A DNA stretch of 38,222 nucleotides from Glycomyces salinus (lineage in GTDB: Bacteria; Actinomycetota; Actinomycetes; Mycobacteriales; Micromonosporaceae). The position numbers and the translations under genes are program-made. The DNA lies in contig NZ_JAELXW010000065.1 of assembly GCF_016428645.1 (NCBI RefSeq), positions 1-38,222 on the forward strand, read 5' to 3'. Every line of letters starts with the position of its first letter. Positions within the stretch are counted from its first letter, which is position 1. The notes under the pieces are model-generated. The model had not been told where the DNA came from and did not search any database. It worked only from the letters and a program-made list of their open reading frames with translations. Below, one piece after another: positions 21,485 to 35,203 of the stretch.

Positions 21485-21561
21485 ATATGGCTTCGGGTCA
21501 TGTCCGCGCATCGATCAGATCGATGCGCACTCCGGCCACCGGGCGACAAGTGGCCGTTCCG

Positions 21562-21567
21562 TAGAAT
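21562..21567 (+). promoter_or_regulatory. -10 element for a leaderless transcript (kinase-like gene)
   Basis: TAGAAT lies seven bases before the ATG at 21575 and there is no ribosome site between them. This fits the TANNNT-plus-6/7 layout of leaderless actinobacterial mRNAs and supports the chosen start. Confidence 0.55.
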
Positions 21568-21574
21568 CGCCTCG

Positions 21575-22129
21575 ATGATCGACGAACTGAGCGAGCGGAT
21601 CACCGCAAGGTCACCCAAGAACGGCGAGTTCCGGATGGTGGCCGTCGACGGACGCGGCGGGTCCGGCAAGTCGACCTTGACCGACAAGCTCGCGCGCTTC
21701 CTTCCGGGCTTCACCATCATTCACGGTGACGACTACTGGGAGCCGAGCCAAGACAGCGAATTCGGGTGGTTCAACGAGGATCGTTTCCACCACGACGTCG
21801 TCGAACCGCTGGGCAAGGGTCAGCGTCGCCTGGCATATCGCCCCTACATCTGGGAATCCGAGCCGCACCTGCGGTCCCAGGAGCTGGTCGTGGACGCCGG
21901 GATCGTCATCGAGCGCTGCTACTCGATCGGCCTGCCGCTCGATTGGGACTACACCATCTGGGTCGATGCCACCCCCGAACTGGCCCTCGAGCGCGGCATC
22001 GGCCGCGAACCGCACCAGGCCGAGGTCTGGGCGAACCTCTGGCTCCCCAGAGAAGACGCCTACATCGAACGCGAACAACCGAAAACCCGCGCCGACACCG
22101 TCATCGACGCAACCCTGCCCTTCGCATGA
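21575..22129 (+). CDS. Uridine-kinase-like P-loop protein
   Basis: A 184-residue P-loop kinase related to uridine kinases and similar small nucleoside or phosphoribulokinase-type proteins. Walker A is GRGGSGKST (residues 26-34). HGDDYWEP supplies the conserved acidic pair after strand two, and a RYRPYIW-like region (AYRPYIWESE) follows. VVDAGIVIERCYS and YTIWVDATPELALERGIGRE are the late strand and the lid helix. The start is the ATG at 21575 behind a leaderless-type -10 element; upstream frame is not needed for any motif. The substrate cannot be deduced. Neighbours are an IS remnant and a broken ATP-grasp gene, so no pathway is evident. Confidence 0.8.
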   Translation: MIDELSERITARSPKNGEFRMVAVDGRGGSGKSTLTDKLARFLPGFTIIHGDDYWEPSQDSEFGWFNEDRFHHDVVEPLGKGQRRLAYRPYIWESEPHLRSQELVVDAGIVIERCYSIGLPLDWDYTIWVDATPELALERGIGREPHQAEVWANLWLPREDAYIEREQPKTRADTVIDATLPFA

Positions 22130-22178
22130 ACCAGTCCCGGCAGCCTCAAAGCCGACCAGCGTCACACCCGCTCTTGAA

Positions 22179-22247
22179 TCAAATTGCGGCCGTAGTACCG
22201 GCTCCGCGGCGCCGGGTGTACGACGGGTCGAGACGGAGCGTTGTCAT
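22179..22247 (-). CDS. Possible 22-codon peptide ORF coupled to the ATP-grasp fragment
   Basis: The ATG at 22247-22245 overlaps the ATP-grasp TGA in an ATGA pattern and opens a 22-codon ORF beginning MTTLRLDPSYTRRRGAG. Coupled short ORFs next to ATP-grasp ligases can encode peptide substrates, but ligase substrates normally have Thr/Glu/Asp-rich cores, which this does not. It could be chance. Confidence 0.25.
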   Translation of the reverse strand: MTTLRLDPSYTRRRGAGTTAAI

Positions 22248-22764
22248 GCGTCGTCTCCGCTGAAACAGCGCTGCACTGCCGCCCTGTAGACGTTCACCGC
22301 CAAGGCTCTGTGCTCGGCGGAGACGGCAGCGAAATGGTTCAAGCTGACACCGCTGTTGATCTCCATCACTCGCATGCCTTCCGAAGTAGCGACGATGTCG
22401 ACGCTCATGAACGCGCCCCCAACCGCACGGATAGCGGCCATTCCCAGATCAGCCAGCTCCGAGCACAGCCGCCGCGACGTCTCGAGGCGAGGTTCGGCAC
22501 CGAACCTCAGATTATGACGCCATTCGGTCGAATCGTGCGAGTCGCGGACCTTTTCGTATGTCAACAGCGCATCCCCATCGAGGAGCACGACACGGTGTTC
22601 GGACAAAATCTCCTCGAAGGGTGACACCGCCAATATGCGGTAGCGTTCCGACAGAAAGCGCGCCACCAACTCGGCCACTGAACGATTCGGTGCCCGGTAA
22701 ACATCGATGCCACCGGATTCCTTACACGGCTTGATGACCACCTCACCGGGAAAGCGGGCGAGCG
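22244..22764 (-). pseudogene. ATP-grasp ligase, C-terminal part, N-terminus lost at an IS
   Basis: About 173 residues of an ATP-grasp (RimK-like) ligase. FPGEVVIKPCKESGG is the nucleotide-binding Lys strand and glycine loop; HRVVLLDGDALLTYEK and a Met/Glu strand near the end, MRVMEINSGVSLNHF, carry the metal-binding Glu-x-Asn. The N-terminal pre-ATP-grasp domain is missing. The frame runs upstream directly into the inverted repeat of the ISAs1 element at 22765, and no matching N-terminal part is visible on the other side of that element. The gene is therefore truncated, probably by insertion plus deletion. The original substrate is unknown; peptide or amino-acid ligation is the family's theme. 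Confidence 0.75.
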
Positions 22765-24076
22765 CACGGCTTTCACGAGAAGTGGTCGGGTGTGTGTTTC
22801 GCCTGGTGAAGCCGTTACATGATGGCGGGCTCGCTCGTTGAGATGTTCGTACACGATGCGTCTTGATGGAGGAAGCCCTTGTCTGGCAAGGACATGACCG
22901 AGTCGTTTGGTATCGCGCGGTTTGAGGAGTGCGTCGCCGAGTTGTCTGACCCTCGCGGTGCGCAGGGGCGCTGCTATCCCCTTGCCGTGTTCGTGGCGGT
23001 CGCGTTGGCGGGGTTGTTGTGCGGCAAGAACACTCCGGCGCAGTGGGCCAGGTGGGCCGCTGACGCACCGGACGCGGTCGTGCGGGCCCTCGGTGGCATC
23101 GGCCTGGAGGTCGGCGGTGCGGCCTGGTGGTCGCTGCCGTCCTACGACCGTCTGATCGAGGTGCTGTCCGGGCTCGATCCGGACGAGCTGGCCCGCTTCG
23201 CCGCCCGGATCGTCCCCGCGGCGCAAGCGGCGAGCGCGACCACGACCCGGCAGGTGCGCATCGACGGCAAGCGTCCGGTGACGGCCGGGCGCGTCACCGG
23301 CGAGGGTTCGAACCTGATATTGGTGGGCGCGTTGGGCCCCGACGGCCGTATGGCCGACCAGGTTTGCATCGACGATGGTGACGAGATCGACGCGCTCCGA
23401 GCGGTGTGCGAACGCCTCGATGCCGAGGGAGCGCTGGTGTCCGCGGACGAGTTGCACTGCAACGAGGACACCGCAGCGGCGATCGTGGAGGCCGGGGCTG
23501 ATTACTGCCTGGCGCTGAAGGGGAACCACCCGGGCCTGTACGCGGCGGCGAAGGCCTTGCCGTGGAGCGAGATCGACAACGCCGTCCAGACCCGCGAGAC
23601 CGGGCACGGGCGCAGCGAGACCCGCACCGTGAAGATCCTCGCTGTAGGCGGAGCAGTGCGCTTGCCCTTCCCCGGCGTGGCCCAGATCGCCCGGGTCCGC
23701 CGCTGGACCCACGACGAGGCCACCGGCGAGGTCGTCCACCATGTCATGTTTTACCTGACCAGCAGGGACGCTACCGCGTTGCGGCCGGTCGAGTTCGCCG
23801 AGGCCGTCCGGAACCATTGGGGCGTCGAATCGTGGCACTGGGTGAAGGATGTCGTCTTCGACGAGGACCGGTCCACTGCGACGGCCGGAAACCTGACCGC
23901 CAACCTTGCCAGCCTCCGCGCCGCTGCCATCGCGATCCTGACCCGTTTGGGCGGCAAGGGCATCACCGCCTGCCGCGACCATATCGGCTGCCATCCTTAC
24001 ACCAAACCGCTAGAAATCCTCGGCATCGCCCACATCAAACAAGAGTTCCAAATGTGCTTATCTCGTGAATGCCGTG
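22765..24076 (+). mobile_element. ISAs1-family insertion sequence
   Basis: The element is bounded by imperfect inverted repeats: CACGGCTTTCACGAGA at 22765-22780 and the reverse complement CACGGCATTCACGAGA at 24061-24076, 15 of 16 bases identical. The enclosed length, about 1.3 kb, fits the family. No direct target duplication is visible just outside the repeats. The true ends may lie a few bases further in or out. Confidence 0.65.
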
Positions 24077-24123
24077 GTCGGGGCCGCGGAAATCGAGGAG
24101 AAGGTCAGCGCCACTCGTCCTGA
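22879..24123 (+). CDS. ISAs1-family transposase
   Basis: A DDE transposase of 414 codons. Catalytic positions fit Asp129 in RIDGKR, Asp190 in SADELHCN and Glu317 in NHWGVESWHWVKDVVF; the ALKGNHPGL strand is also diagnostic. I chose the TTG at 22879 because GGAGG lies six bases upstream; an ATG follows five codons later. The frame passes straight through the right inverted repeat and stops about 45 bp outside it, so the last ~16 residues (after QMCLS) are probably encoded by flanking DNA. Apart from that tail the protein looks intact. The element has cut off the neighbouring ATP-grasp gene. Confidence 0.88.
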   Translation: MSGKDMTESFGIARFEECVAELSDPRGAQGRCYPLAVFVAVALAGLLCGKNTPAQWARWAADAPDAVVRALGGIGLEVGGAAWWSLPSYDRLIEVLSGLDPDELARFAARIVPAAQAASATTTRQVRIDGKRPVTAGRVTGEGSNLILVGALGPDGRMADQVCIDDGDEIDALRAVCERLDAEGALVSADELHCNEDTAAAIVEAGADYCLALKGNHPGLYAAAKALPWSEIDNAVQTRETGHGRSETRTVKILAVGGAVRLPFPGVAQIARVRRWTHDEATGEVVHHVMFYLTSRDATALRPVEFAEAVRNHWGVESWHWVKDVVFDEDRSTATAGNLTANLASLRAAAIAILTRLGGKGITACRDHIGCHPYTKPLEILGIAHIKQEFQMCLSRECRGRGRGNRGEGQRHSS

Positions 24124-24249
24124 TCCCGGTGCTGACAACTTCACGATTGTGAAGCTTCACCCAGGATGAAGGCAGACAACGAGTAGCCGCGCTCACAGTC
24201 GTCGAAACCGAAGTCACCGGTTGATGCACCCGAACCTTCTACTGCTCGG

Positions 24250-24672
24250 CTACGGAGTGCTGCTGTTCCATGTGTCGCGGTGCATCTTCCAGACACCGCC
24301 GTCGTTCTTCCACAGGACCATGATCTTTCCTCGGCCCAGGAGTGCGCCGTCCGCTCCGTACACGGAGGATTCGCCTACCTCGAGCGCGTATTCGCCCATC
24401 GGGATTACTTCCAAGGTATGCGGTCGGGCGTCGGTTATGCCGAGTTCGAAGAAGCCCCGCCAGTACTGCGCGATGGCGTCCGCGCCGCTGACGGCGTCCG
24501 CGTTCGGGTGCAGAATGATGGCATCGTCGGTGTAGAGGGAGGGCATGGCCGCACTGTCGGCGGTGCGGATTGCCTCCATGAACCGCTCGTTGCCCTCACG
24601 GATGCCTGTTGTCGCGTCCTTGCTGCCGTCCCACGTCGAGTTTCCGATTCCATGCTGATGGTACGACCGCAA
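24250..24672 (-). CDS. SnoaL-like / DUF4440 (NTF2-fold) protein
   Basis: A 140-residue protein with the cystatin-like NTF2 fold typical of SnoaL, ketosteroid-isomerase-like and DUF4440 proteins. Characteristic parts are FMEAIRTADSAAMPSLYTDD, AIILHPNADAVSGADAIAQY, WRGFFELGI and the C-terminal GKIMVLWKNDGGVWKMHRD. This fold forms a small cavity for hydrophobic substrates, and many members have no known reaction. The frame opens with a TTG at 24672 with no good ribosome site, so the start is uncertain and the gene could be trimmed at the 5' end. It lies 74 bp from a nucS remnant that reads away from it. Confidence 0.75.
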   Translation of the reverse strand: MRSYHQHGIGNSTWDGSKDATTGIREGNERFMEAIRTADSAAMPSLYTDDAIILHPNADAVSGADAIAQYWRGFFELGITDARPHTLEVIPMGEYALEVGESSVYGADGALLGRGKIMVLWKNDGGVWKMHRDTWNSSTP

Positions 24673-24727
24673 CCGCCGCGTGTAATCGGTTCACGCCAAT
24701 CCCACCGGCCAGGGTCGCGTCGGCAGG

Positions 24728-24851
24728 CGTCGGTAGGGTGCTGGGCATGCGTCTGTTGGTGGCACGGTGCCAGGTTGATTAGACTGGCCGTTTTTCTGCA
24801 CATTTGCCCACGGCTGACCGTTTGAAAATATGGAAAGTGGACGGGAGCGCG
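24728..24851 (+). pseudogene. Decayed duplicate of the nucS promoter and 5' end
   Basis: From ATG at 24747 this reads [32 protein letters not shown], almost the start of NucS at 31498. By hand I count 16 differences in 105 aligned bases, and the upstream leader with TAGGGT in place of TAAGGT also aligns. Codon 12 is TAG where nucS has TAC. Similarity ends at about 24851, and the rest of nucS is absent. Most of the differences are synonymous, so the two copies diverged while both were functional. It forms the left border of the peptide/P450 cluster. Confidence 0.88.
24728..24851 (+). repeat. Left direct repeat of the 6.6-kb cluster (nucS 5' end)
   Basis: Direct repeat of 31479-31602, offset by 6751 bp, with about 85% identity over the coding part. 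It has the same orientation as the right copy. Together the copies bracket eight genes. Confidence 0.8.
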
Positions 24852-24876
24852 ATCAACATGCTTGCGTCCAGGGGCT

Positions 24877-25368
24877 TCAGTTGCCTAGCCCGTCCCGTAT
24901 TCGAGCCGCGCGTCGAAGGTACTCGTGCTCGGCGACGAGTACAGGACGTTCGGGGTCACCGAGAAGCGGACGTCCGGGTGCCGGATCTCCCCAGTAGCGA
25001 GGGATCACATGGCAGTGGGTGTGCGGTACCGAGTTCCCCAGTATTTGGTAGTTCATCTTGTCGGCCTCGAAGACTCGTTGCACGACAGCTCCCACCCGTA
25101 CCACCTCGGTGAAGAACAGCGCCCGCTCCGCGTCCGGCAGATCGTGCGGCTCAGCGGCGTGCGTCTTGCAGACTACGATGCAGTATCCGGTTGCGAACTG
25201 ATCCCTGCCGAGCTTGACTACTGATACCTCCAGTTCGGCGATGGTAAATCCGATGAGATCGGACGCGTCCGCCTCCATCGAGCCGGGCTCGGTCAGGGAC
25301 GCGCACAGTCGGCACCCCTCACCGGCCACGAGCCGGTCCCATTCGCGCCTCGGCATCCAGCCGTCCAT
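24877..25368 (-). CDS. HIT-family nucleotide hydrolase/transferase
   Basis: A 163-residue histidine-triad protein. The signature HTHCHVIPR (His116, His118, His120) has the catalytic central His, and an upstream KTH followed by HDL (CIVVCKTHAAEPHDLPDA) fits the substrate pocket. The N-terminal CRLC pair recalls the zinc-binding CxxC of many HIT proteins. Members cleave or transfer nucleoside monophosphates from phosphoramidates, phosphosulfates or dinucleotides. The gene follows the second permease with a 12-bp gap and AGAAGAGG as ribosome site, and is the last gene of the operon. With a nucleotidyltransferase-like and a dTMP-kinase-like protein in the same operon, a nucleotidylated intermediate is conceivable, with HIT removing the nucleotide; that is an inference. 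Confidence 0.87.
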   Translation of the reverse strand: MDGWMPRREWDRLVAGEGCRLCASLTEPGSMEADASDLIGFTIAELEVSVVKLGRDQFATGYCIVVCKTHAAEPHDLPDAERALFFTEVVRVGAVVQRVFEADKMNYQILGNSVPHTHCHVIPRYWGDPAPGRPLLGDPERPVLVAEHEYLRRAARIRDGLGN

Positions 25369-25380
25369 GCTTGCCTCTTC

Positions 25381-26181
25381 TCAGCTCCCGAACTCTATAG
25401 CCCCGGAACGACGGCCTGACTCGGCGAATCGCTTGAATCCGAGAATCGCTACTCCCAGGCTCGCCGTCCCTACGATCGCTTCCATCCCTACATGCATCAG
25501 GACCTCGGTGAATCCCATTTCCGCTGAGAGCACGCCCCTGATGGCGGCCAGACCATGGTGCACCGGCAGCACGGCGGAGAGAGCCTGGAGCCAATCGGGC
25601 CACACCGACACCGGGACCTGTGCGCCGCTGATGGCCATAAGGGAGAGCATCGTGAGGTTGCCGACGACGTTCCGCAGAGAGTCCGCGCGCAATACCAGGC
25701 CGCCGAGGATGAGTCCGAAGCAGTAGGTGGAGAGTCCGACGAGCGCTATCAGTGGGATGACCACCAGCGCCATGGGCAATCGGAGGTCGACGCCGAACAG
25801 CGGTGACAGCAGGAACAGTGCCAACGTCGCGCTGGCCGTCCCGCTCGCCAGCCATTGCACGCTTCGCCCGCAGAGGACCAGTGCCAGGCTGGCAGGCGCG
25901 GCGATCAGCAGGGGGACACTGCCGGTCCAACGCTCCCAGGAGGTGGAGGCCACCACGAACAGGCTCTCCATCGCGGCGATCATGACCGCGTTGCCGATGA
26001 GCAGGTACTCGGTGTACTCGGGGGAATCGATCAGCCTTCCGATCAGCGCAAAGAAGGAGACCTGGCACAACACTCGAAACAGCCAACCGGTGATCCAGGT
26101 CCGGACGGTGTAGATGGTTCGGAAGTCGGCGAAGCCGGACGCTGCCGCGTAGCGCAGGATGCGGAGTCCATCGCTGATCAT
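25381..26181 (-). CDS. ABC-2-type transporter permease (second subunit)
   Basis: A 266-residue integral membrane protein with about six hydrophobic segments, arranged like ABC-2 exporter permeases. Recognisable parts are the WITGWLFRVLCQVSFFALIG first helix, AVMIAAMESLFVVASTSWER, a conserved-looking short motif MLSLMAISGAQVPVSVWPDW before the last helices, and HHGLAAIRGVL. The ATG at 26181 overlaps the TGA of the first permease as ATGA. The frame remains open far upstream, but that part is a shadow of the first permease. It should pair with the first permease and the ATPase as a heteromeric exporter of the cluster's product, possibly also giving self-resistance. Confidence 0.85.
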   Translation of the reverse strand: MISDGLRILRYAAASGFADFRTIYTVRTWITGWLFRVLCQVSFFALIGRLIDSPEYTEYLLIGNAVMIAAMESLFVVASTSWERWTGSVPLLIAAPASLALVLCGRSVQWLASGTASATLALFLLSPLFGVDLRLPMALVVIPLIALVGLSTYCFGLILGGLVLRADSLRNVVGNLTMLSLMAISGAQVPVSVWPDWLQALSAVLPVHHGLAAIRGVLSAEMGFTEVLMHVGMEAIVGTASLGVAILGFKRFAESGRRSGAIEFGS

Positions 26182-26948
26182 GCGTGGGAGACCGTCCCGT
26201 CGTTGCGAACCTTGAGCAGTACGCGATGAATCAGCCATGCTCCTAGCAGAAACCCGGTGCCGCCCAGGACAATCACGGCCGCAATGCGCGGCAACACCCG
26301 TTGAACCGGAGCCTCCGAGAGGCTGTCGCGTAGCAGATCGGTGCCCCAGGAGAGGAATACGACCTGTGTCAGTGGACGCAGCCACTCCGGCAGCAGTGCG
26401 GGGGGAACGAGTACGCCGCCGAGAATGTAGAAGGGGTACGACAGCGAGTTCTGAAAGGTTCTCGCCGATCGGGTGAGCACGAACAGACCGGCCATCGCGC
26501 TGGCAGTTCCGGCCATCGCGAGACCGATCGCCGCCAGAGTACCGACGAACAACCATGGATGCGGCACCGCGACGGCTTTGCCGAACAGGACCCTGGCCAC
26601 CAGCCAGCACTCGGCCACCGAAACCAGACTGACCAGGGTGATCATGGCGATCCGGCTCAATACGACTACCGCGACCGGGGAAGGGGAGGCGACAAGCAGT
26701 TCTAGGCGCCCGTCTGTTCGGTCGTTGGCTATGATCTCGCCCGAGGCCAGCAGTGCCATGGCGAACACCGTGATCATCGCAGGAGCCAGGACGGCGTACC
26801 CGGTGAGATCATCGCGACCCGTATACCGGACGATGGCAAGGAAAATTACTGTGAACAGTGGAGCGTTCACCAGAGCCATGAGATCGTGCGGGGACCGCCG
26901 CATGGCGGCGATCTGGAATCTGGCCATCGCCAACGCGAGCCGAATCAT
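26178..26948 (-). CDS. ABC-2-type transporter permease (first subunit)
   Basis: A 256-residue membrane protein with about six transmembrane segments. The IIANDRTDGRLELLVASP stretch resembles the conserved E-(K/R)-x-x-G-x-LE-L region of ABC-2 permeases, which lies in the coupling loop facing the ATPase. SYPFYILGGVLVPPALLP and LRPLTQVVFLSWGTDLLR form the typical ABC-2 tail. Its ATG overlaps the ATPase TGA (ATGA), and its own TGA overlaps the next permease start. It forms an exporter with its two neighbours. The substrate is not known; the adjacent peptide gene is the obvious candidate. Confidence 0.87.
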   Translation of the reverse strand: MIRLALAMARFQIAAMRRSPHDLMALVNAPLFTVIFLAIVRYTGRDDLTGYAVLAPAMITVFAMALLASGEIIANDRTDGRLELLVASPSPVAVVVLSRIAMITLVSLVSVAECWLVARVLFGKAVAVPHPWLFVGTLAAIGLAMAGTASAMAGLFVLTRSARTFQNSLSYPFYILGGVLVPPALLPEWLRPLTQVVFLSWGTDLLRDSLSEAPVQRVLPRIAAVIVLGGTGFLLGAWLIHRVLLKVRNDGTVSHA

Positions 26949-27940
26949 CCTACGTTCAGACCCCGGCTGCCGATGAGGTGCAGATAGACCTCCTCAAGGC
27001 TGGGTCGAGAGGTCGACAGTGAGGTTACCCCACCGTCGACGAGGAGGCTCAGCACAGCGGCAGAGGTGCCGTCTCCGGCAGTCTCGACGGTGATACGACC
27101 CTCCGAGTCGATCTCTACCCCGGCCACTCCCTCAACCTTCCGGATGCGGTCGATCAATTCGGCAGGTACTCCTTCGGCCGTGACTCGCTCCCAGGCCGAG
27201 AGCCATTCACCGATGGTCCGCGGGTCCTCCGTGCCGAGCAGCTTCCCGGAGTCGATGAGAGTGACTCGGTCGCAGAGTTCCTCGGCCTCGGTCATGTCGT
27301 GAGTGGTCAGCAGAATGGTTCGCCCCTCGGCCCGCAGCTGCCGCACGAGGCCCCGAAAGTCCCTGGCGGCCGCCGGGTCCAGCCCGACGGTGGGCTCATC
27401 GAGAATGAGCAGCCGTGGATTCCCGACCAGTCCGCGTGCCAGATGCAGGCGTTGCTTCATCCCGCGTGAAAAGGTCTCCACGCGCTCGTCGGCGCGCTCC
27501 TCCAATCCGAGTCGTTCCAGGAGCTTCGCGGTTCTCTCGGCACCCTCGGATGTGGGCTGCCGGTAGAGGGCCGACCAGTACATGAGGTTCTGCCGTGCGG
27601 TGAGACGGGTATACAGTCCGCGCTCACCGCCGAGAACGACTCCGACCAGCGGTCGCACCCGGGTGGTACTGACGACCACATCGTGGCCGAAGACCTTCGC
27701 GATTCCGGAGGTCGGAATCAACACGGTGGAGAGAATCTTGCACAGGGTGGTCTTTCCGGCGCCGTTGGGTCCGAGAAGGCCGTGTACCTCGCCGCTCGGG
27801 ACGGTCAAGGTGATGGCGTCGAGCGCGGTTCTGGATTCGGGAGGACGACGTTTCAGCCGCCCCGGCAATCGGGACCTGCTTCGTACGAAGGTCCTCGTCA
27901 GATCAGCGACGGCGACGGCGAGTGGTGAGGATTCGGTCAT
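26945..27940 (-). CDS. ABC exporter ATPase subunit
   Basis: A 331-residue ATPase of the DrrA/NatA type. Walker A is GPNGAGKTT (residues 57-65), the signature is FSRGMKQR, Walker B is LLILDEPTVGLDP and the H-loop is TTHDMTEAEEL. A C-terminal ~90-residue extension with a YLHLIG end is normal for ABC-2 exporter ATPases. I chose the ATG at 27940 (MTESSPLAV) because it overlaps the upstream TGA as ATGA; the frame is open beyond it without coding character. A basic insert of about 15 residues (RSRSRLPGRLKRRPPESR) sits between the first strand and Walker A, longer than usual. It energises the two permeases encoded directly downstream. Confidence 0.93.
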   Translation of the reverse strand: MTESSPLAVAVADLTRTFVRSRSRLPGRLKRRPPESRTALDAITLTVPSGEVHGLLGPNGAGKTTLCKILSTVLIPTSGIAKVFGHDVVVSTTRVRPLVGVVLGGERGLYTRLTARQNLMYWSALYRQPTSEGAERTAKLLERLGLEERADERVETFSRGMKQRLHLARGLVGNPRLLILDEPTVGLDPAAARDFRGLVRQLRAEGRTILLTTHDMTEAEELCDRVTLIDSGKLLGTEDPRTIGEWLSAWERVTAEGVPAELIDRIRKVEGVAGVEIDSEGRITVETAGDGTSAAVLSLLVDGGVTSLSTSRPSLEEVYLHLIGSRGLNVG

Positions 27941-29124
27941 TCGGGCCCTCTCATAGCGGCTCGGTCCGGTCGTCGGTCGGTCGCCTCCTCCAACCATTCC
28001 GAGCGGCAGGCGCCTCCGACCAGGATGAAGCTGCCTATGGGAGTGAGCGCCACGGTTCGGCGACGTCGCTGGACGAGTTCGAAGCCACGATATCGGTTGT
28101 CGTCCAACGGGATTCCATAAGCAGCCAGTCCCGCGCTCATCAGCCGTCGCACACCGATCCGTTCGTGCACCACCAGGGAGACCCAGTCCGCCACTCGACC
28201 CCGGTCGGCGTCGACCGTCGTCGCCGCGATACGTCCCGGTACCTGCAGCGGCCTCCAGCCACGAAGCGAACGCAGAACGCGTCTCGCGCGATCCCGCGCG
28301 GCGAGGCCGCGAGCCCGATCGGCCAGCGGCAGGCCACCCAGATCCGCACGCGCGACTCGCTTGCAGAGCTCGAGCCACTCCGGCCACAAGCCTATTTCGG
28401 TCAGCGCCTCTTCCAGGAGGCCCAATTCGACATCAGAGGACGAGTTGGTCAGCAATACCGCGTCCAAGAGGTCCCGACTCGCGAACGGCCGCTCGAATCG
28501 TTCGGCTGCCAGCGCCACCAGGCTCCCGCAGGTGCCCGACCGTGCCGCCGCCGGCAGCGTTCGCACGGCGGTGTTCAGGCTGGTCGCCACATCCACGGTG
28601 GAGATCCCAACAACGTACGGAACGCCGAGCCGCTCCCGTTCCGGTGTTCGCAACTCGACCATGAGGTCGTTCCACCGAGACTCGCGACGCGATCCGGGCA
28701 GCACAGTGAATGCGGTGACCTCCCAAGACCGGTCGAGGAGAGTTCTGACGACACTCCAGAGGTCGTCTTGGCCGTCACAGATCAGATCGAGGTCACCTGC
28801 GGCCCGCACCACGTCCTTCGGATAGCGTGCGGCGATGTCCGGTCCCTTGACGATCCTTACAGCCGCCCGCTCACCGAGGGTCCTCGCGAGCCGTTCGTAG
28901 AAGTCGGCGCGGCTTCTGTGGGCGGCAAGGTTTTCGGCGCCACCGGGCGGAAGGTTCCGTCGCTCGGCCGCCCATGCACTCAGCAGCGTCGCTCCTAGCT
29001 TGTGGCGCGGCGATCGGGCCTCACTCAGAAGCATCGCGTCGTCGGCATCCGCGGAGGCTCCTCGCGCGATCAATAGTCGGCGGAGTCTCCTGCCGGTGAA
29101 CAAGTCGACTTCTGTTGTGTTCAC
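27937..29124 (-). CDS. Nucleotidyltransferase-like protein (NTP_transf_5 type)
   Basis: A 395-residue protein with the nucleotidyltransferase core seen in uncharacterised PF14907-type proteins: IVKGPDIAARYP (residues 91-102) followed by VRAAGDLDLICDG (106-118), where Asp111 and Asp113 would bind metal. This K-G-x..YP..R..GDLDL pattern is found in proteins encoded beside various peptide and polysaccharide clusters, including some lasso-peptide loci. The start is a GTG at 29124, overlapping the kinase stop as GTGA; the end overlaps the ABC ATPase start. It might attach a nucleotide to the peptide or to a small molecule. The acceptor is unknown, and the fold call rests on one motif region. Confidence 0.7.
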   Translation of the reverse strand: MNTTEVDLFTGRRLRRLLIARGASADADDAMLLSEARSPRHKLGATLLSAWAAERRNLPPGGAENLAAHRSRADFYERLARTLGERAAVRIVKGPDIAARYPKDVVRAAGDLDLICDGQDDLWSVVRTLLDRSWEVTAFTVLPGSRRESRWNDLMVELRTPERERLGVPYVVGISTVDVATSLNTAVRTLPAAARSGTCGSLVALAAERFERPFASRDLLDAVLLTNSSSDVELGLLEEALTEIGLWPEWLELCKRVARADLGGLPLADRARGLAARDRARRVLRSLRGWRPLQVPGRIAATTVDADRGRVADWVSLVVHERIGVRRLMSAGLAAYGIPLDDNRYRGFELVQRRRRTVALTPIGSFILVGGACRSEWLEEATDRRPDRAAMRGPE

Positions 29125-29792
29125 GAAGGCTCGGACCTCATCTCGGCACGCCGGGCAACATCTGGAAACCGACGTGCGATCTGGCTGCGGACAGCTCTTC
29201 CGACAGCGGCGGTGTCCTCGCTTCCGTCTATCACCGTGAAATTCTCGGATTCGGGGATCTCGTCGTATTCATGCGCGAACGCCTTGAGATACTCGGGATA
29301 TTCATGATCGACTCCGCGTCGACGCAGCCGTTCCAGGGCCGTCTCCGGCTCGACCCGAACCAGAATGGTCATATGGGGCACAGGAAGGTTCCGGAACATA
29401 CGGCGCAGCAGGTTCTCATTACCTGTCCCCATAGCTCTCACAGAAGCATAGAAACAAGCAACGTAGCGGTCTACGACGACGAAATCGTCACGCTCGAGAG
29501 CGGGGAGCAACGTCTCATTCCAGTCCCGGTATCGGACCATTGCTCCCACGAATCTTGTCATGGCAGGGCCGACGACGTCCATGTGATCGCCCAGACCTGC
29601 CTCGGCGGCCATGTCAGTGAGAACCCTCCGGGTGAACGATGGGCTCTGGGAGGCGACGACCGCAGTCCTATAGCCGAGGTCGCGGAGCCACGATCCAGCG
29701 AGTTCGGCCTGGGTGGTCTTGCCAGACCCGTCGGTTCCGGCGAACGCGATGAAGCGAGCCGGAAGAGCATCGGGAGCGTTTATCGTTTCCAT
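29121..29792 (-). CDS. dTMP-kinase-like P-loop kinase
   Basis: A 223-residue protein of the thymidylate kinase family. GTDGSGKTT (residues 19-27) is the P-loop, FVVVDRYVAC carries the Asp-Arg-Tyr motif, and VRVEPETALERLRRRG is the late strand with the Arg-rich lid. The family's length is about 210, so this is complete. In a peptide operon it is unlikely to be the housekeeping kinase and may phosphorylate a pathway intermediate or supply a nucleotide. The ATG at 29792 has no clear ribosome site; the spacer to the peptide stop is 56 bp. The stop overlaps the nucleotidyltransferase start. Substrate choice (dTMP or something else) cannot be read from the sequence. Confidence 0.85.
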   Translation of the reverse strand: METINAPDALPARFIAFAGTDGSGKTTQAELAGSWLRDLGYRTAVVASQSPSFTRRVLTDMAAEAGLGDHMDVVGPAMTRFVGAMVRYRDWNETLLPALERDDFVVVDRYVACFYASVRAMGTGNENLLRRMFRNLPVPHMTILVRVEPETALERLRRRGVDHEYPEYLKAFAHEYDEIPESENFTVIDGSEDTAAVGRAVRSQIARRFPDVARRAEMRSEPS

Positions 29793-29848
29793 TGCGTTGA
29801 GCGCAGCGGCCCCGAGTGCGGAGCCACTGCACCTGACTTGTGGCCAGT

Positions 29849-29932
29849 CTACTTCTTCTTGTCTTCGGGGGGCTTGGCCAGCACTCTTACCTTCTTGAGC
29901 GAGACATGACGGCCCATAAACTTGGCGTTCAT
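29849..29932 (-). CDS. 27-residue peptide, candidate ribosomal-peptide precursor
   Basis: The peptide opens MNAKFMGRHVSLKK and ends with PPEDKKK; the middle is a basic, Val/Leu-containing stretch. The evidence for a real gene is its setting: GGAAGGAG lies about eight bases before the ATG, and a consensus-like promoter is 40 bp further up. It is the first ORF of the seven-gene operon. It has one Phe, one His and no Tyr, Trp or Cys, so it fits neither lasso, lanthipeptide nor the Tyr-His/Trp biarylitide pattern. It might be a modified peptide, a signalling peptide or a leader ORF. The product class is not recognised. Confidence 0.6.
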   Translation of the reverse strand: MNAKFMGRHVSLKKVRVLAKPPEDKKK

Positions 29933-29972
29933 GGTTGCTTCTCCTTCCTGTCGGAATGCGCGTACCCGAAAG

Positions 29973-30001
29973 AGCATAGAATCCATCTCACCGGGAGTCA
30001 A
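29973..30001 (-). promoter_or_regulatory. Promoter of the peptide/kinase/ABC operon
   Basis: On the minus strand TTGACT (30001-29996) and TATGCT (29978-29973) are separated by 17 bp. Each matches the housekeeping sigma consensus at five of six or four of six positions. Transcription would start near 29966, leaving a ~34-base leader with the ribosome site GGAAGGAG before the peptide ATG at 29932. Confidence 0.7.
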
Positions 30002-30231
30002 TATCCAACTCCATGATCATTTTAGACCGGTACCTCCATGCGTTGGCAATGTTCCCATTGTTATCGAGTGAGAACACTGAGGCAGTTGCGATCAGAGATG
30101 ACTCTGCCAAGTGGCGGCCTCCGCACTAGTCCGCACACCTCTGCCGTGCGACAATCGCCTGGTTTATACAGCTGCACCCGTCCCGGACCATCGCCAACCG
30201 ATCCAGGATTCCTTGGGCCGAGAGGATCACC

Positions 30232-31455
30232 ATGCCGAAGATTGACTTCCCCTTCCCTGACGGCGCATCACCGTACGCCGAATTCAATGCGATTCGCGAG
30301 AAGACCAGAGTTCATCGCACACAACTTCCCGACGGTCCCCATGTTTGGATCGTCACCCGTTATCAGGACGCGCTGGAAATCTTCTCGGAGAAATCTGTCA
30401 CCAAAAGCTACAGAGAAGCCAAGCATTATATGAACACATCGGGAGCACAGACGATCGACGACACTGACATTCCCGATTACGAGGACATGATCACCTCTGA
30501 CTCCTCACGGCACGAGCACCTGCGACGCAGCGTGACCGCGGCGTTCACTCCTCGCCGGATACGGTCACTGCGGCCACGGATCGAGCAGCTCACGCATGAT
30601 CTGATCGACGAGTTCGCGGCCCGAGGCGCATCCGATCTCATGGCGGAATTCGCCTACCCCCTGCCCATTGCCGTGATCTGCGAATTGCTCGGCGTCCCCA
30701 AAGAAGACGGTGAATCCTTCAAGCACTGGGCGATTGCGCTCGTAGACGAAGCGGCCCCGGAGGCCGGGCACGCATACGCGGAGCTCTCTGATTACCTGCG
30801 CGAGCTGCTCCTCACCAAGAAGAAGCGGCGAGACGATGACCTGCTCGGCGCCCTGCTCGCGGAGCCCGCGGAGCCGTTGGCGTTCGATGACGTCCACGCG
30901 ACGGCCGTGCTCCTGCTGTGGGCCGGATTCGCGACCACCGCGAACCTCATCGGCAACGGAGTCCACGCCCTGATCCAACGACCCGAGCTCACGAAGCCGG
31001 TGCTCGCACGCCCTGAGGCCCTTTCCGGTCTGGTGGAGGAGCTACTGCGCCTGTACCCACCCGCTCAGCTCAGCACGCTCCGGTGCGCCACCCGGCCCTT
31101 GTCGATCGGCGAGATCGACATACCGACCGGTTCAGTAGTGCTCGTCAACATCGCCAGCGCGAACCGCGACCCGCGCCAGTTCCGTGAACCCGACCGCATC
31201 GACCCGAAGCGCGAACCCAATCGGCATATGAGCTTCGGTCATGGCATCCACAACTGCCTCGGCGCAGCCCTGGCCCGACTCGAGGGCGACATCGCGTTCC
31301 GGGCACTTCTCGAGCGGCTTCCCAACCTCGCCTTCGATTCAACGACCGCTGAACCACCTTGGCGCCCAAGTGGATTCATGCGTGGATTGGCCAAGCTCTC
31401 CGTTACGTTCAACTCCCCCACCGGAACGATCGCGATCCCTTCCGGGGAGGCATGA
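30232..31455 (+). CDS. Cytochrome P450
   Basis: A 407-residue bacterial class I P450. The heme loop is FGHGIHNCLG with the ligand Cys342, ExxR is Glu270-Leu-Leu-Arg273, and the I-helix motif is AGFATT (231-236), in which Phe-Ala replaces the usual His-Glu before Thr. C-helix HEHLRR is present. The start ATG has GAGAGG six bases upstream. No ferredoxin or reductase gene is nearby, so redox partners must be supplied elsewhere. It is divergent from the peptide operon across 299 bp and is the only oxidase in the cluster, so it is a candidate peptide or small-molecule tailoring enzyme. The altered acid residue in the I-helix suggests altered proton delivery or non-hydroxylating chemistry such as cross-linking; that is an inference. 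Confidence 0.92.
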   Translation: MPKIDFPFPDGASPYAEFNAIREKTRVHRTQLPDGPHVWIVTRYQDALEIFSEKSVTKSYREAKHYMNTSGAQTIDDTDIPDYEDMITSDSSRHEHLRRSVTAAFTPRRIRSLRPRIEQLTHDLIDEFAARGASDLMAEFAYPLPIAVICELLGVPKEDGESFKHWAIALVDEAAPEAGHAYAELSDYLRELLLTKKKRRDDDLLGALLAEPAEPLAFDDVHATAVLLLWAGFATTANLIGNGVHALIQRPELTKPVLARPEALSGLVEELLRLYPPAQLSTLRCATRPLSIGEIDIPTGSVVLVNIASANRDPRQFREPDRIDPKREPNRHMSFGHGIHNCLGAALARLEGDIAFRALLERLPNLAFDSTTAEPPWRPSGFMRGLAKLSVTFNSPTGTIAIPSGEA

Positions 31456-31478
31456 CCGGCACCGACGCAACACCTCCG

Positions 31479-31602
31479 GGCCGATAAGGTGGCGCGCATG
31501 CGTTTGTTGGTGGCACGGTGCCAGGTTGATTACACTGGTCGGCTTTCAGCTCATTTGCCCATGGCCGACCGTTTGATAATTTGGAAGGCCGACGGGAGTG
31601 TG
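31479..31602 (+). repeat. Right direct repeat of the 6.6-kb cluster (nucS 5' end)
   Basis: The intact copy, covering the promoter and the first 35 codons of nucS. Its partner is 24728-24851. The coding part differs at 16 of 105 positions by hand count. Confidence 0.8.
31485..31490 (+). promoter_or_regulatory. -10 element for leaderless nucS transcript
   Basis: TAAGGT is seven bases before the nucS ATG with no ribosome site between. This is the normal spacing for a leaderless start and supports 31498 rather than the frame's earlier ATG at 31489. Confidence 0.55.
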
Positions 31603-32163
31603 CTGGTGCATGCCGATGGGGGGTCTTATAAGCCGCTCAATTGGATGACGCCGCCGTGTTCGGTGGTCGAGGGGGACGGGGTTTGGACCGTCACTTCCAA
31701 GAAGTCCGGGGACCAGTTGAAGATCTCGATCGAAGAGGTCTTCCACGACTCGTCGCATGAGCTCGGCGTCGACCCGGGGCTGCAGAAGGACGGGGTCGAG
31801 GCGCATCTGCAGGAGTTGCTGGCGGCCGACACCGGTCCGCTCGGGGACGGGTGGTCGCTGGTGCGGCGGGAGTATCCGACCGCGATCGGGCCGGTGGACC
31901 TGATGTGCCGCGACGCCGACGGCGGGCATGTGGCCGTCGAGATCAAGCGGCGCGGCGAGATCGACGGCGTCGAGCAGTTGACGCGGTATCTGGAGCTGCT
32001 CAACCGCGACCCGCTGCTGTCGCCGGTCGAAGGGGTGTTCGCGGCCCAGGCGATCAAGCCGCAGGCGCGGGTCCTGGCCGAGGACCGCGGGATCCGGTGC
32101 GTGGTGCTGGACTACGACGACATGCGCGGGGCGGTCGACGAATCCCAGCCGCGCCTTTTCTGA
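31498..32163 (+). CDS. nucS: Mismatch-specific endonuclease NucS/EndoMS
   Basis: A 221-residue NucS, the enzyme of non-canonical mismatch repair in actinobacteria and archaea. It recognises G:T, G:G and T:T mismatches and cuts both strands, with help from the sliding clamp. The N-terminal DNA-binding and dimerisation part begins [16 protein letters not shown]; the C-terminal RecB-like nuclease has GPVDLMC (Asp134), VAVEIKRRG (Glu148, Lys150) and [10 protein letters not shown] (Gln160). The length matches the family. The first 35 codons occur again as a broken copy 6.75 kb upstream, so the present 5' end may have arrived with the inserted cluster. The gene is followed by a strong hairpin shared with a convergent gene. 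Confidence 0.96.
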
Positions 32164-32189
32164 ACTTCCCGGTCGAGGCGGTTTTGAGC

Positions 32190-32217
32190 GGCGGCGGGGG
32201 TACCGTTCCCCGCCGCC
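32190..32217. terminator. Bidirectional hairpin terminator between nucS and DUF4190 gene
   Basis: GGCGGCGGGG (32190-32199) pairs perfectly with CCCCGCCGCC (32208-32217) around an 8-base loop. It sits between two convergent stop codons, so it can serve both genes. Confidence 0.75.
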
Positions 32218-32225
32218 GTCGAGCA

Positions 32226-32624
32226 TCAGTTGGTCTCGAGGTCGTCGAGCTCCTGGTTGATCTGGTCGGTGCACTCGGCCGCGCTGCCGGAGTAGCCGGC
32301 CTCCTCGCAGGCGTCGCCGACCGCGTCGTAGATCACGACGGTCCAGACGATCGCGGCGGCGATCGCGAGGATGCCGAGGACGATGCCTGCGATGCCGGTG
32401 CCCTTCCCGGCCTGGTTGACGCGGTTCTTGCTGACGACGGCGCCCACGATGCCGAAGATGAGGGCCAGGATGCCCAGCGGGATGCCGATGAAGATGCCGA
32501 CGCCGGGGATCAGGCCGGCCAGCAGGCCGATGATGCCCAGGACCAGGGCGGTGACGCCGAAGCCGTTGCCGGACTTCTGCTGCGGCATGGGCTGGGCAGG
32601 GGGCGGGGCGGGGGGATAGGACAC
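32226..32624 (-). CDS. DUF4190-type small membrane protein
   Basis: A 132-residue membrane protein. A Pro/Gln-rich cytoplasmic head (MSYPPAPPPAQPMPQQ) is followed by FGVTALVLGIIGLLAGL and a glycine-rich hydrophobic stretch GIFIGIPLGILALIFGIVGA. A short basic loop follows, then a last membrane segment GIVLGILAIAAAIVW and an acidic tail with two Cys. This layout is typical of DUF4190 proteins, common in actinobacteria and of unknown role. The ATG follows a purine-rich AAGGAGA site. It is transcribed toward nucS and shares the terminator, and is divergent from manC. Confidence 0.85.
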   Translation of the reverse strand: MSYPPAPPPAQPMPQQKSGNGFGVTALVLGIIGLLAGLIPGVGIFIGIPLGILALIFGIVGAVVSKNRVNQAGKGTGIAGIVLGILAIAAAIVWTVVIYDAVGDACEEAGYSGSAAECTDQINQELDDLETN

Positions 32625-32781
32625 GGGAATCTCCTTGGTCGTGATCGTTGCGGAATGTTCTGGGCGGAACGCGAGACAGCCTAGCCGATGCCCGCAACCG
32701 CCTGGTCACCGCCGACGCCGTTCACGCGCTGGACAGCACGGCGTGAACGTCCTCGTTGAGGCGGCATGCAAGACTATTGGC

Positions 32782-33870
32782 ATGCTTCACGCGGTGGTCC
32801 CCGCAGGCGGCTCAGGTACCCGGCTCTGGCCCCTGTCGCGCGCTCAGCGGCCCAAGTTCCTGCTGCCTCTGACCGGGTCCGATTCGTCCCTGCTCCAATC
32901 GACCGTCGAGCGGGTGCGGCTGCTGTCCGGTCCCGACCACGTCTACGTGGTCACCGGCACCGCGCACGCGGTCGACGTGGCCCGCCAGCTCCCCGAGGTG
33001 CCCGGCGACAACATCCTCGTCGAGCCCAGCCCGCGCGACTCGGCCGCCGCCATCAGCCTGGCCGCGGCCGTCATCGCCGAGCGCGAGCCCCAGGCCGTCA
33101 TGGGCTCCTTCGCCGCCGACCACCTCGTGCCCGACGGCAAGGCCTTCGCCGAGACCGTCGAGCGAGCCATGGAGCTGGCCTCCACAGGCCTGCTGATGAC
33201 CATCGGCATCAACCCGACCGGCCCGGACACCGGCCTGGGGTACCTCCGCCTGGGGTCGGCGGTCGGACCCGGCTACCACCTGGACGCGTTCGTGGAGAAG
33301 CCCGACCAGGTCTCGGCCGTGGAATACGTCTCCTCGGGCAACTACCTGTGGAACGCCGGGATGTTCGTCTGGCGAGTCGACGTCTTCCTCGGCGAGCTGG
33401 CCCGGCACCGCCCGGCCCTGCACGACGCCGTCCGCGAACTGGCCTCGGCCTGGGACACCAACGGCCGCGAGGCCCTGTTCGCCAAGCTCTGGCCGACCTT
33501 GGACAAGATCTCGGTCGACTACGCGGTCATGGAGCCGGCCGCGGCGGCCGGGAAGGTCGGGGTGGTCCCCGGCGATTTCGAGTGGCACGACGTGGGCGAC
33601 TACGACACGCTCGGCCAGGTCCTCAAGGCCGCCGACCGGGTCGGCAACGTCGTCGTCGAACCGGCCGGCGCCGGGCGGGCGCACCTGACCGAGTCCAAGC
33701 GGAACGTGGTGGTGCCGGCCTCGGGGCGCCTGGTGGTCACGGTCGGGGTCGACGATCTGATCATCGTCGACACGCCCGACGCGCTCCTGGTGTGCCCCAG
33801 GGACCGCGCTCAGGAGGTCAAGGGCGTGGTCGAGGAACTGAAGCAGTCCGGCCGCACGGATCTGGTCTAA
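32782..33870 (+). CDS. manC: Mannose-1-phosphate guanylyltransferase
   Basis: A 362-residue GDP-mannose pyrophosphorylase that makes GDP-mannose from mannose-1-phosphate and GTP. The nucleotide-binding motif PAGGSGTRLWPLSRAQRPK (residues 7-25) and FVEKP of the sugar site are clear; FAADHLV carries the metal-binding Asp. I chose the ATG at 32782 because the signature begins five residues later; the frame is open upstream but codon use there is poor. The length is that of the single-domain enzyme without an isomerase domain. Its product feeds lipoglycan and protein mannosylation. manB, which makes its substrate, is 2.4 kb downstream. In Mycobacterium the orthologue (called manB there) lies near whiB2 in the same order, with fbiAB between. 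Confidence 0.94.
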   Translation: MLHAVVPAGGSGTRLWPLSRAQRPKFLLPLTGSDSSLLQSTVERVRLLSGPDHVYVVTGTAHAVDVARQLPEVPGDNILVEPSPRDSAAAISLAAAVIAEREPQAVMGSFAADHLVPDGKAFAETVERAMELASTGLLMTIGINPTGPDTGLGYLRLGSAVGPGYHLDAFVEKPDQVSAVEYVSSGNYLWNAGMFVWRVDVFLGELARHRPALHDAVRELASAWDTNGREALFAKLWPTLDKISVDYAVMEPAAAAGKVGVVPGDFEWHDVGDYDTLGQVLKAADRVGNVVVEPAGAGRAHLTESKRNVVVPASGRLVVTVGVDDLIIVDTPDALLVCPRDRAQEVKGVVEELKQSGRTDLV

Positions 33871-33878
33871 TACCGGCC

Positions 33879-34358
33879 ATGCCGTCTCAGCGCACTCGCA
33901 CCGTCGTCGCCTACGTCCTGCTGGCTGCGGCCGGCCTCTTCATCGGCGTCGCGATCTCCCAATGGCTGTTCGGGTTCACCGTCGACCCCGACCCCCGCGA
34001 CGACGCGCTGAGCCGCGCCGCGGGCATGGGCTTCACCGACGAAGCCAGGCGGACCCTGTTCTCGATCGTGCCGGTGGCGGCACCGGCCCTGGCGGCCTGG
34101 CTGGCACCGGTCGGCGACCCCGGACGGGGGATACGCCGCGGCTCCCGTATCGCCTACGCGCTCTTGATCGTTATTGGAGTGCTGCTGGCGTTGTCGGCGG
34201 CACGGTACGGATTCGACCAGGACGCGCAGTTGGTCCGCGACGGCGCGGTGTTCATCGACACGCGCGCGGCCGTGGAGCGGCTGGTCCTGGACCTGACGTG
34301 GCTGGTCTTGGCCGGTCTCGCCTGGTGGTCCGTGCGATGGAGCGCGAAACGCGAGTAA
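33879..34358 (+). CDS. Hypothetical four-TM membrane protein
   Basis: A 159-residue membrane protein beginning MPSQRTRTVVAYVLLAAAGL, eight bases after the manC stop and probably co-transcribed. Hydrophobic segments lie at about residues 9-30, 62-75, 90-108 and 132-150. I recognise no family motif. A charged middle section (DPDPRDDALSRAAGMGFTDE) sits between the first two segments. The ATG at 33879 is the first in the frame after manC; the open frame further upstream overlaps manC and is a shadow. The location next to GDP-mannose synthesis may be coincidental. Confidence 0.7.
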   Translation: MPSQRTRTVVAYVLLAAAGLFIGVAISQWLFGFTVDPDPRDDALSRAAGMGFTDEARRTLFSIVPVAAPALAAWLAPVGDPGRGIRRGSRIAYALLIVIGVLLALSAARYGFDQDAQLVRDGAVFIDTRAAVERLVLDLTWLVLAGLAWWSVRWSAKRE

Positions 34359-34707
34359 GACTCCACATTGCTCGACCGTGATCGCCTGTCCCCGAAGGGG
34401 TGAGTCCGAGGGGTCCTTCCATCGCCCAGATCACTGTGCGCTATCGTCTGATAGCGAAACGTTATCGAATAACGATGAACGCTCATCGACCAAAGTGATG
34501 AGCCTGAGCGGAGCGGCCCCATCTCAAGGCCGCCCGCGGGCACTTGGACCGGGATCTGCGCGCAGCCGGCGGCGCCGCATTTCCGGGCCGCCGCGCCACA
34601 GGGGAGGGAGCGCGTCCGGCCTGAAGGTCCGACATCTGGTGCCGCGCAAGTGATTGCAAGGGGGGAGCATCGGCACCGCCGGTGCGCACACGAGGAGGCG
34701 GACGTAT
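34359..34707. other. whiB upstream region with paired palindromes
   Basis: About 350 bp with no gene. It holds the CCCCGAAGGGG hairpin at 34391-34401 (a possible end for the preceding unit), two adjacent palindromes at 34439-34474, and GC-rich inverted sequences before whiB. whiB-type genes usually have long, heavily regulated leaders. Confidence 0.6.
34439..34474. promoter_or_regulatory. Tandem palindromes upstream of whiB
   Basis: CGCTATC-GTCT-GATAGCG (34439-34456) is a perfect 7-bp inverted repeat. CGTTAT-CGA-ATAACG (34460-34474) is a second perfect one of 6 bp, only three bases on. Both share a TATCG core. The pair looks like a double operator for a dimeric repressor; it is not an obvious BldD box. 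Confidence 0.5.
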
Positions 34708-35145
34708 ATGGACGGCCGTGACTACCTGGCCGACCTTTTGGGAAACGTTCCGGAGTGGCAGGCTCGCGCACTGTGCGCGCAGACCGACCCGGAGGCGTTC
34801 TTCCCCGAGAAAGGGGGATCCACGCGCGATGCCAAGCGCATCTGCGCCCGATGCGAAGTCAAGGAGAACTGTCTGCAATACGCGCTCGAGCACGATGAGC
34901 GCTTCGGCATCTGGGGCGGCCTGTCGGAGCGGGAGCGCCGCAAGATCAAGCGCCAGGCGCGCGAAGCGGCCCGGCGGCTCGCGGAACGCCGCGTGCCGGT
35001 CGTGGTCTGCATGCCGACCCCGATGATCAACCCCGACTTGGAGCAGCAGACCGCACTCACCGAGCCGGTCCCGGCCTCGGTCCTGACCGCGCCGCAGGAG
35101 GCGCCGGCCGAGGTCGAACGAGAACGCGTCCCGGTGGCCGCATAG
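34708..35145 (+). CDS. whiB: WhiB-family iron-sulfur transcription factor
   Basis: A 145-residue Wbl protein. The four cluster-binding cysteines are Cys23, Cys46, Cys49 and Cys55 in C-(22)-C-x2-C-x5-C, followed by the GIWGGLSERER turn (around residues 67-77) and a basic tail, RRKIKRQAREAARR, for DNA contact. The C-terminal 50 residues are acidic and Pro-rich. I chose the ATG at 34708 because GAGGAGG lies about ten bases upstream. Synteny with the metallopeptidase-like and DUF3499 genes and manB points to the orthologue of Streptomyces WhiB / mycobacterial WhiB2 (WhmD), which works with WhiA in septation and sporulation. The assignment to that subtype is by context. Confidence 0.93.
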   Translation: MDGRDYLADLLGNVPEWQARALCAQTDPEAFFPEKGGSTRDAKRICARCEVKENCLQYALEHDERFGIWGGLSERERRKIKRQAREAARRLAERRVPVVVCMPTPMINPDLEQQTALTEPVPASVLTAPQEAPAEVERERVPVAA

Positions 35146-35165
35146 GCCGAGACGGGATAACAATT

Positions 35166-35203
35166 CGCGCGAGGGCGGGGCCACGTTGCCCCGCCCTCGC
35201 GCG
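35166..35203. terminator. Bidirectional hairpin terminator after whiB
   Basis: A near-perfect 15-bp stem: CGCGCGAGGGCGGGG (35166-35180) pairs with CCCCGCCCTCGCGCG (35189-35203) around a short loop. It sits between the convergent whiB and metallopeptidase-like genes and can end both transcripts. Confidence 0.8.

Follow-up and report, generated by a model that had tools for sequence, protein, structure and literature searches.

Mobile modules appear to have inserted repeatedly at one exact spot in the start of nucS in Glycomyces

Why does a gene cluster of Glycomyces salinus stand between two copies of the start of nucS? The locus lies in contig NZ_JAELXW010000065.1, of which 38,222 nucleotides (nt) were analysed. 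We call this whole stretch the window, and the genome that holds it is G000 among the 22 genomes of the genus that were compared. In our opinion, mobile cassettes appear to have inserted repeatedly at one exact spot of nucS in Glycomyces, and the cluster in the window would be one of them.

An earlier note on this DNA had described direct repeats of the nucS promoter and first codons around the cluster, and this is correct. Positions 24731-24847 and 31482-31598 form a direct repeat of 117 nt with 84% identity and a start-to-start distance of 6751. It is the longest direct repeat found in 19000-36000, and nhmmer at E values up to 50 gave only these two nucS 5' copies in the window and no third one. 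The left copy indeed has TAG as codon 12 (24780-24782). The extent given by the note needs correction: the homology that it followed through 35 codons to about 24851 is real, but it stops at nt 99 of nucS, that is at codon 33 (24845 in the left copy, 31596 in the right), and we take the further 3-4 nt of scored match in the window to be chance. Its count of 16 differences was also wrong, since there are 14 mismatches in the 99 shared coding nt, or 23 over the 124-nt frame 24728-24851/31479-31602. Its silent share of about two thirds was roughly right, as 8 of the 14 coding mismatches (57%) fall in synonymous codons, compared with 24% expected from random single changes. The features in question are as follows.

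24731..24845, plus strand: left nucS 5' stump on the resident side, with a -10-like box and codons 1-33, TAG at codon 12; 84% identical to the right copy
24687..24746, plus strand: promoter region of the stump, of resident type; it agrees with the nucS promoter of G019 at 48 of 60 positions, the right copy at 23 of 60
24845..24846, no strand: putative left crossover, after GACGGG (nt 99 of nucS), the endpoint common to 12 stumps in eight genomes
31482..31596, plus strand: right nucS 5' copy with a TAAGGT box (31485-31490) and codons 1-33, presumably supplied by the module; its 5' type is discordant with the body of the gene
31596..31597, no strand: putative right crossover within nucS, at the common stump endpoint
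31498..32163, plus strand: nucS, an intact open frame and putative chimera of incoming codons 1-33 and a resident body (NucS_N, NucS_C; EndoMS 5gke; trees)

Is the window alone in this? A NucS search found the gene in 22 of the 22 genus genomes, and eight of these also gave short extra matches to its first 34-48 codons. Truncated nucS 5' ends, which we call stumps, number 12 in 8 of the 22 genomes, with one or two upstream of each nucS: one each in the genome of the window, G005, G009 and G014, and two each in G003, G010, G012 and G013. An unfiltered profile search of the fetched loci added no further stumps, and no stump without inserted DNA behind it was seen among the genus genomes. In other genera of the family (278 genomes sampled) there is one nucS 5' end in 276 and none in two. 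In a sample of the class, a nucS 5' match was found in 339 of 394 genomes and two matches in three, namely that of the window, G360 and G633. In the latter two, which lie outside Glycomyces, the second match may represent a second gene copy, an assembly duplicate or a stump. We see in the start of nucS a hotspot of integration in this genus, of which the repeat in the window is one case.

The stumps end together, and on account of this common endpoint we set aside chance or simple duplication as the origin of the repeat. When they are aligned by the start codon, agreement with the nucS consensus across GACGGG (nt 94-99) is 12, 12, 11, 12, 12 and 11 of 12, and falls to 6, 3 and 5 at the next three positions. 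The scored ends lie at 0-based offsets 97-100 in eleven stumps and at 102 in that of the window. The upstream edge is softer than that at nt 99, ranging from -10 to -34. The upstream box of the stumps is TAGGGT-N7-ATG, with TAAGGT in the functional copy of the window; its conserved form, TANGGT-N7-ATG, is a putative leaderless -10 box. Sequences after nt 99 are of several unlike types, with close likeness only among three elements that carry an integrase, and the arm after the core in G014 has one motif in common with the arms of those three. In the stumps of G010, G012 and G013, TTCCAAA starts 11 nt to the left (reverse strand) and 15 nt to the right of the junction, and G014 has the pair at the same spacing with one change per side. 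For one serine integrase, PMC3783163 places a zinc-domain motif 5 bp closer to the centre in attB than in attP; the spacing of TTCCAAA is suggestive of such sites.

Which enzyme could act there? In G010, G012 and G013, which represent three species, a protein of 539-618 amino acids (aa) starts 68 bp past nt 99 of a stump. The G010 protein has Resolvase (53.1 bits), Recombinase (37.6 bits) and zinc-ribbon (32.8 bits) domains, all above the Pfam cut-offs, and by these domains it is a predicted large serine integrase; it also matches a solved structure, 9iu2, called 'Integrase'. The integrases of G012 and G013 are 85% identical to it. Given the common endpoint and an integrase beside three stumps, we favour site-specific recombination at nt 99 over plain homologous exchange. 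In G010 the neighbours of the integrase are a Replic_Relax protein and a TrwB/FtsK-like protein (TrwB 41.2 bits; FtsK_SpoIIIE 24.0, with a cut-off of 24). Relatives of the integrase elsewhere in the genus are distant (best 32%), and in the wider class none of 394 genomes has a close one at E <= 1e-80, a strict cut applied to a set that lacks a positive control. No relative was found in viral contigs among 83 pattern matches. A plasmid search gave three records at 27-29%. A phage search gave 654, with identities of up to 32.8% along 93% of the protein (in RhynO and others), and no paper on an integrase of Glycomyces came up in a literature search. Four relatives in Streptomyces (38-48%; L089-L092, around 9800-10000) lie 51-179 bp past the end of a ClpB-like frame, one of the four frames having been scanned and passing the ClpB equivalog cut-off. 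No nucS stump was found in these four loci, and the position suggests that the end of a clpB-like gene is another integration site for this group of integrases.

The modules differ in size and content. Measured from core to core, the integrase elements have 20,922, 17,496 and 16,014 bp, four modules with a DUF4132 gene have 3,557-4,583 bp, that of the window has 6,751 bp, and the others have 2,410, 1,697, 1,221 and 935 bp. The integrase element precedes the DUF4132 module in G010 and G012 and follows it in G013, and promoter types go with the module type in either order: over the stretch from -60 to -17, identity is 25-29 of 43 among integrase elements and 21-43 among DUF4132 modules, but 9-13 between the types. 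The main gene of the DUF4132 modules (G009, G010, G012, G013) encodes a protein of 1102 aa (L036:1390-4698), and many of the genomes whose loci were fetched have, at a greater distance upstream of nucS, another long protein with a similar start. A defence-gene scan of the cargo of several modules gave matches in 2 of 10 proteins. Neither the Schlafen/HATPase protein of G003 (part of pAgo models, E 5e-15) nor the coupling-protein-like protein of G010 (mad8, HerA) was taken as a defence system.

Which of the two 5' ends is the incoming one? G015 has no stump, and its sequence upstream of nucS matches G010 left of the first stump in two blocks, of 315 bp at 91% and of 142 bp at 86%, which adjoin in G010 and are separated by some 185 bp in G015. 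On the upstream side of nt 99, G015 agrees with the G010 stump at 50/60 in the promoter and at 95/99 in the coding part, and less well with the functional copy (25/60 and 89/99). After nt 99 it agrees with the functional copy at 49/51 and with the stump at 17/51. As far as sequence can tell, G015 is an empty site for the G010 module. For G009 the promoter gives 49/60 for the stump and 25/60 for the functional copy, with the coding parts equal at 88 and 89/99, and in the comparison of G005 with G001 the coding part gives 88/99 for the stump and 72/99 for the functional copy. When the window is compared with G019, the stump has the closer promoter, as listed above, and the functional copy the closer sequence after nt 99 (41/51, stump 16/51); the coding parts (stump 64, functional copy 71 of 99) are both of the other type.

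Does the nucS gene itself look composite? The window falls with G021, G006, G018, G004, G017 and G019 when a tree is made of the nucS body (support 99/98), and in the tree of the 5' end both window copies are in the other clade (99/99). A constraint that kept this body group as one in the 5' tree built from functional copies was rejected (approximately unbiased (AU) test, p = 0.0006), and without the window the other six form a group of their own in the 5' tree (88/85). Because its functional 5' end is discordant with the body of the gene, NucS of the window looks chimeric. G001 is the opposite mix of 5' end and body, as forcing it with those six in the body tree was rejected (p = 0.026). In G005 a sister relation of stump and functional copy was rejected (p = 0.022), the two being of different 5' types; residues 1-33 of the G005 stump are those of G001.

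These results bear on the earlier note, which held that the cluster arrived with a foreign nucS 5' end, or a whole nucS, that took the place of the resident one and left a stump. The promoter of the stump and the discordance between 5' end and body support the arrival of a separate 5' end with its promoter. That the stump is the former resident start holds for the promoter, which is of resident type, but not for the coding part, since an old clade-I 5' end was rejected for the stump (AU p = 0.015). Further, the two window copies pair in the 5' tree, weakly and not firmly (61/78), and both have a private Asp24. With a stump that is not of clade I and copies that are nearest relatives, an earlier replacement or gene conversion must be assumed. 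The note had named two observations that would together speak against it. The first, copies nearest to each other, is seen weakly; the second is not seen, since none of the stumps came from a genome free of inserted DNA behind it.

One genome shows a broken outcome. The nucS gene of G014 has lost 43 bp, starting no more than a base from the crossover, and its frame is shifted as a result (G014:C3 ~313849-313960; L042 ~13850-13960); the NucS search found no other nucS in this genome. The deletion may have arisen when recombination failed, although an error of assembly may also account for it. G014 is possibly a natural strain without NucS.

We therefore propose that modules integrate site-specifically into the start of nucS in Glycomyces and that the window cluster is one such module, its recombinase having been lost or having acted in trans; we would give this a probability of about three in four. 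The nucS-facing end of an incoming module would carry the -10-like box and the first 33 codons of nucS up to GACGGG. Strand exchange right after GACGGG would join the promoter and 5' end of the module to the resident nucS body, so that nucS keeps an open frame but is now a chimera; the promoter and 5' end of the resident gene would remain as a stump on the far side. The rebuilt start would be made up of a nucS 5' end followed by GACGGG and then the native right half. It would have all parts of the target; hence the target would be regenerated and modules could stack. In G010, G012 and G013 the enzyme is probably the large serine integrase encoded beside a stump, and in the window a recombinase would have been lost or supplied in trans. 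What is observed are the repeats with their common endpoint, an integrase gene next to three of the stumps, an empty site for one module, promoter types that go with the module type whatever the order, and the discordance of 5' end and body; that the exchange is made by this integrase, that the TANGGT box acts as a promoter, and that the window module entered by this route, we infer.

Several observations weigh against this proposal. Most modules, that of the window included, have no recombinase, and the genome of the window has no close relative of the integrase, only two weak matches. In 8 of the 12 stumps the right arms after the core are unlike those of the integrase elements. The G010/G012/G013 integrase may therefore not have moved these modules, and one has to reckon with more than one enzyme, with arms that were lost or with homologous exchange as a means of spread. 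The 5' coding parts are independent of module type (83-99/99 between types), and the two copies in G012 are identical (99/99); gene conversion or homogenisation seems to be at work. The promoters of G005 compared with G001 favour neither copy (stump 22/60, functional copy 24/60), and both window copies are of one 5' type. The 5' trees rest on 99 columns, G021 is a long branch, and the tested groups were named after the trees had been seen. No empty site for the window module was found. The note had suggested looking for one with a SnoaL-like gene next to nucS, which is absent from the fetched upstream stretches of 21 relatives; the DNA of the SnoaL-like gene has no match in the 22 genus genomes. 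Nor do the genes of the left flank match those stretches, and over 17294-24730 this flank gives scattered matches in 16 other genus genomes, the best being a transposase region. That region holds a DDE transposase gene (22879-24123, plus strand) left of the stump and recurs at 96% in G018 and at 81% in another contig of the same genome.

The explanation that survives best besides ours is that the window cluster was brought in by homologous (homeologous) recombination between nucS 5' ends, a recombinase having made the ends of the modules only long ago. The missing recombinase and close integrase, right arms that are unrelated among modules, homogenised 5' ends such as those of G012, and the Asp24 that both window copies have would all fit. 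We consider it unlikely nonetheless, because the common endpoint holds for the window too, and because NucS hinders recombination between sequences 85% alike in Mycobacterium smegmatis, according to PMC5290159. The earlier note had left homologous exchange and a lost recombinase side by side. In our view the endpoint and the integrases favour the site-specific route at nt 99, although the window module may have come by homologous exchange.

Quite improbable is a crossover at the upstream edge of the repeat, by which a module would give a promoter only, the stump would be a piece of the module and the functional nucS would be wholly resident. It is true that in G005 it is the stump that has the other 5' type, the functional copy being in accord with the clade of its body, and that the coding parts alone hardly separate the two directions (95 versus 89/99 in G010; 88 versus 89 in G009). 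But the sharp common edge is at nt 99 and the upstream edge is the one that varies (-10 to -34), and the functional 5' end of the window disagrees with its body. Moreover, the functional nucS of G001 has the 5' type of the G005 stump (the same first 33 residues), so this type was resident among strains of body clade II. A tandem copy of the nucS start that arose in place and was afterwards parted by insertions of unrelated DNA would account for the weak sister relation of the window copies (61/78), but it is hardly credible given the same endpoint with different neighbours in eight genomes, the integrase beside three stumps, promoters that differ between the two copies and the lack of any such stump in the 278 genomes from other genera of the family.

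What does the window module carry? Its genes are listed below; as the earlier note had said, there is no integrase among them.

24846..31596, no strand: whole module of 6751 bp between the two cores, with 63.1% GC; no gene for a recombinase was found in it (gene content, family scan)
24877..25368, minus strand: HIT-domain protein, cargo (PF01230); 79% identical to the HIT gene adjoining nucS in G019
25381..26181, minus strand: ABC-2 permease, cargo (PF01061)
26178..26948, minus strand: ABC-2 permease, cargo (PF01061)
26945..27940, minus strand: DrrA-like ABC ATPase, cargo (PF00005; TIGR01188 below its cut-off)
27937..29124, minus strand: nucleotidyltransferase-like protein, cargo (weak NTP_transf_5, E 0.014, below cut-off)
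29121..29792, minus strand: thymidylate-kinase-like protein, cargo (PF02223)
29849..29932, minus strand: gene of a Lys-rich peptide of 27 aa with a Shine-Dalgarno-like sequence; translation MNAKFMGRHVSLKKVRVLAKPPEDKKK
30232..31455, plus strand: cytochrome P450, cargo (PF00067), ending 42 bp before nucS

The peptide gene heads the operon of the kinase, nucleotidyltransferase and ABC genes. The peptide had no family match (query 29853-29933, one base off the frame). Relatives of the nucleotidyltransferase-like protein occur in 8 of 394 class genomes, the window's own included; of five fetched neighbourhoods, three have related ABC genes, one of these with a P450 too, and none has a match to the HIT or kinase protein. 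Short Lys-rich peptide candidates, chosen by eye from a longer list, lie upstream of related operons in L108 and L111. The cargo might perhaps be a natural-product cluster for a small peptide, while the P450, ABC and nucleotidyltransferase matches are generic and point to no particular product. The HIT gene of G019 (G019:C44:149845-150324) is directly upstream of nucS and stands on the other side of the promoter; no scenario explains it well.

If our proposal is true, nucS is a second mismatch-repair gene, unrelated to streptococcal mutL, whose 5' end serves as an integration site, in a host lineage that repairs mismatches with NucS. The literature searched, as far as its accessible text goes, gave no report of nucS as an integration site. 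Our results suggest a large-serine-integrase system that rebuilds the promoter and N-terminus of a gene. They provide natural NucS chimeras of known boundaries and one strain with a frame shifted at the crossover, and the integrase with its site could serve as a genetic tool for Glycomyces. In M. smegmatis, loss of NucS raises mutation and homeologous recombination, as described in PMC5290159. We regard it as a doubtful speculation that cassettes docking at nucS might set the mutation rate of the host and its tolerance for recombination of diverged DNA, by swapping the promoter and N-terminus; modules might tune or sometimes break nucS (as in G014), and loosened repair might ease further exchange of modules via diverged 5' copies. 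Whether mobile elements set mutation rate and recombination tolerance in this way becomes testable when strains with and without a module are compared.

How does this compare with known systems? The nearest phage enzymes, mycobacteriophage large serine integrases with up to the 32.8% identity given above, are presumably Bxb1-like; unlike them, the G010 integrase has neighbours of conjugation type rather than phage genes. With its integrase, Replic_Relax and FtsK/TrwB-like proteins, the G010 element resembles actinomycete integrative and conjugative elements (AICEs). It differs from them in that the domain scan identified no replication initiator, and the window module has none of the AICE genes (integrase, FtsK-type transfer protein, Replic_Relax, initiator). 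Stacks and recombinase-free cassettes at one site are also a feature of the staphylococcal cassette chromosome (SCC). SCC and the Enterococcus cassette chromosome use serine recombinases, a conserved rlmH target and sites at both ends, according to PMC6222049. The SCC target is the 3' region of rlmH, whereas here it is the 5' end of nucS, and the integrase scores 28.4 bits with the CcrB model, whose cut-off is 900, which separates it from SCC.

Integration at the 5' end of a mismatch-repair gene has a likeness in SpyCI of Streptococcus pyogenes, whose site is the 5' end of mutL and which has an effect on mismatch repair (PMC3430984). SpyCI silences mutL unless excised, whereas the nucS module seems to bring its own start and the frame stays open. 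The two targets are unrelated genes, and in this respect the nucS modules are distinct from SpyCI. SXT, at prfC, and the dusA islands also insert in the 5' end of a conserved gene and replace the 5' end of the target. Their integrases are tyrosine recombinases. The nucS frame, open with new in-frame 5' codons, has the feature of such elements; unlike SXT and the dusA islands, the system described here has actinobacterial nucS as its target and an integrase of the large serine type, and its modules, some with a recombinase and some lacking one, are stacked in tandem.

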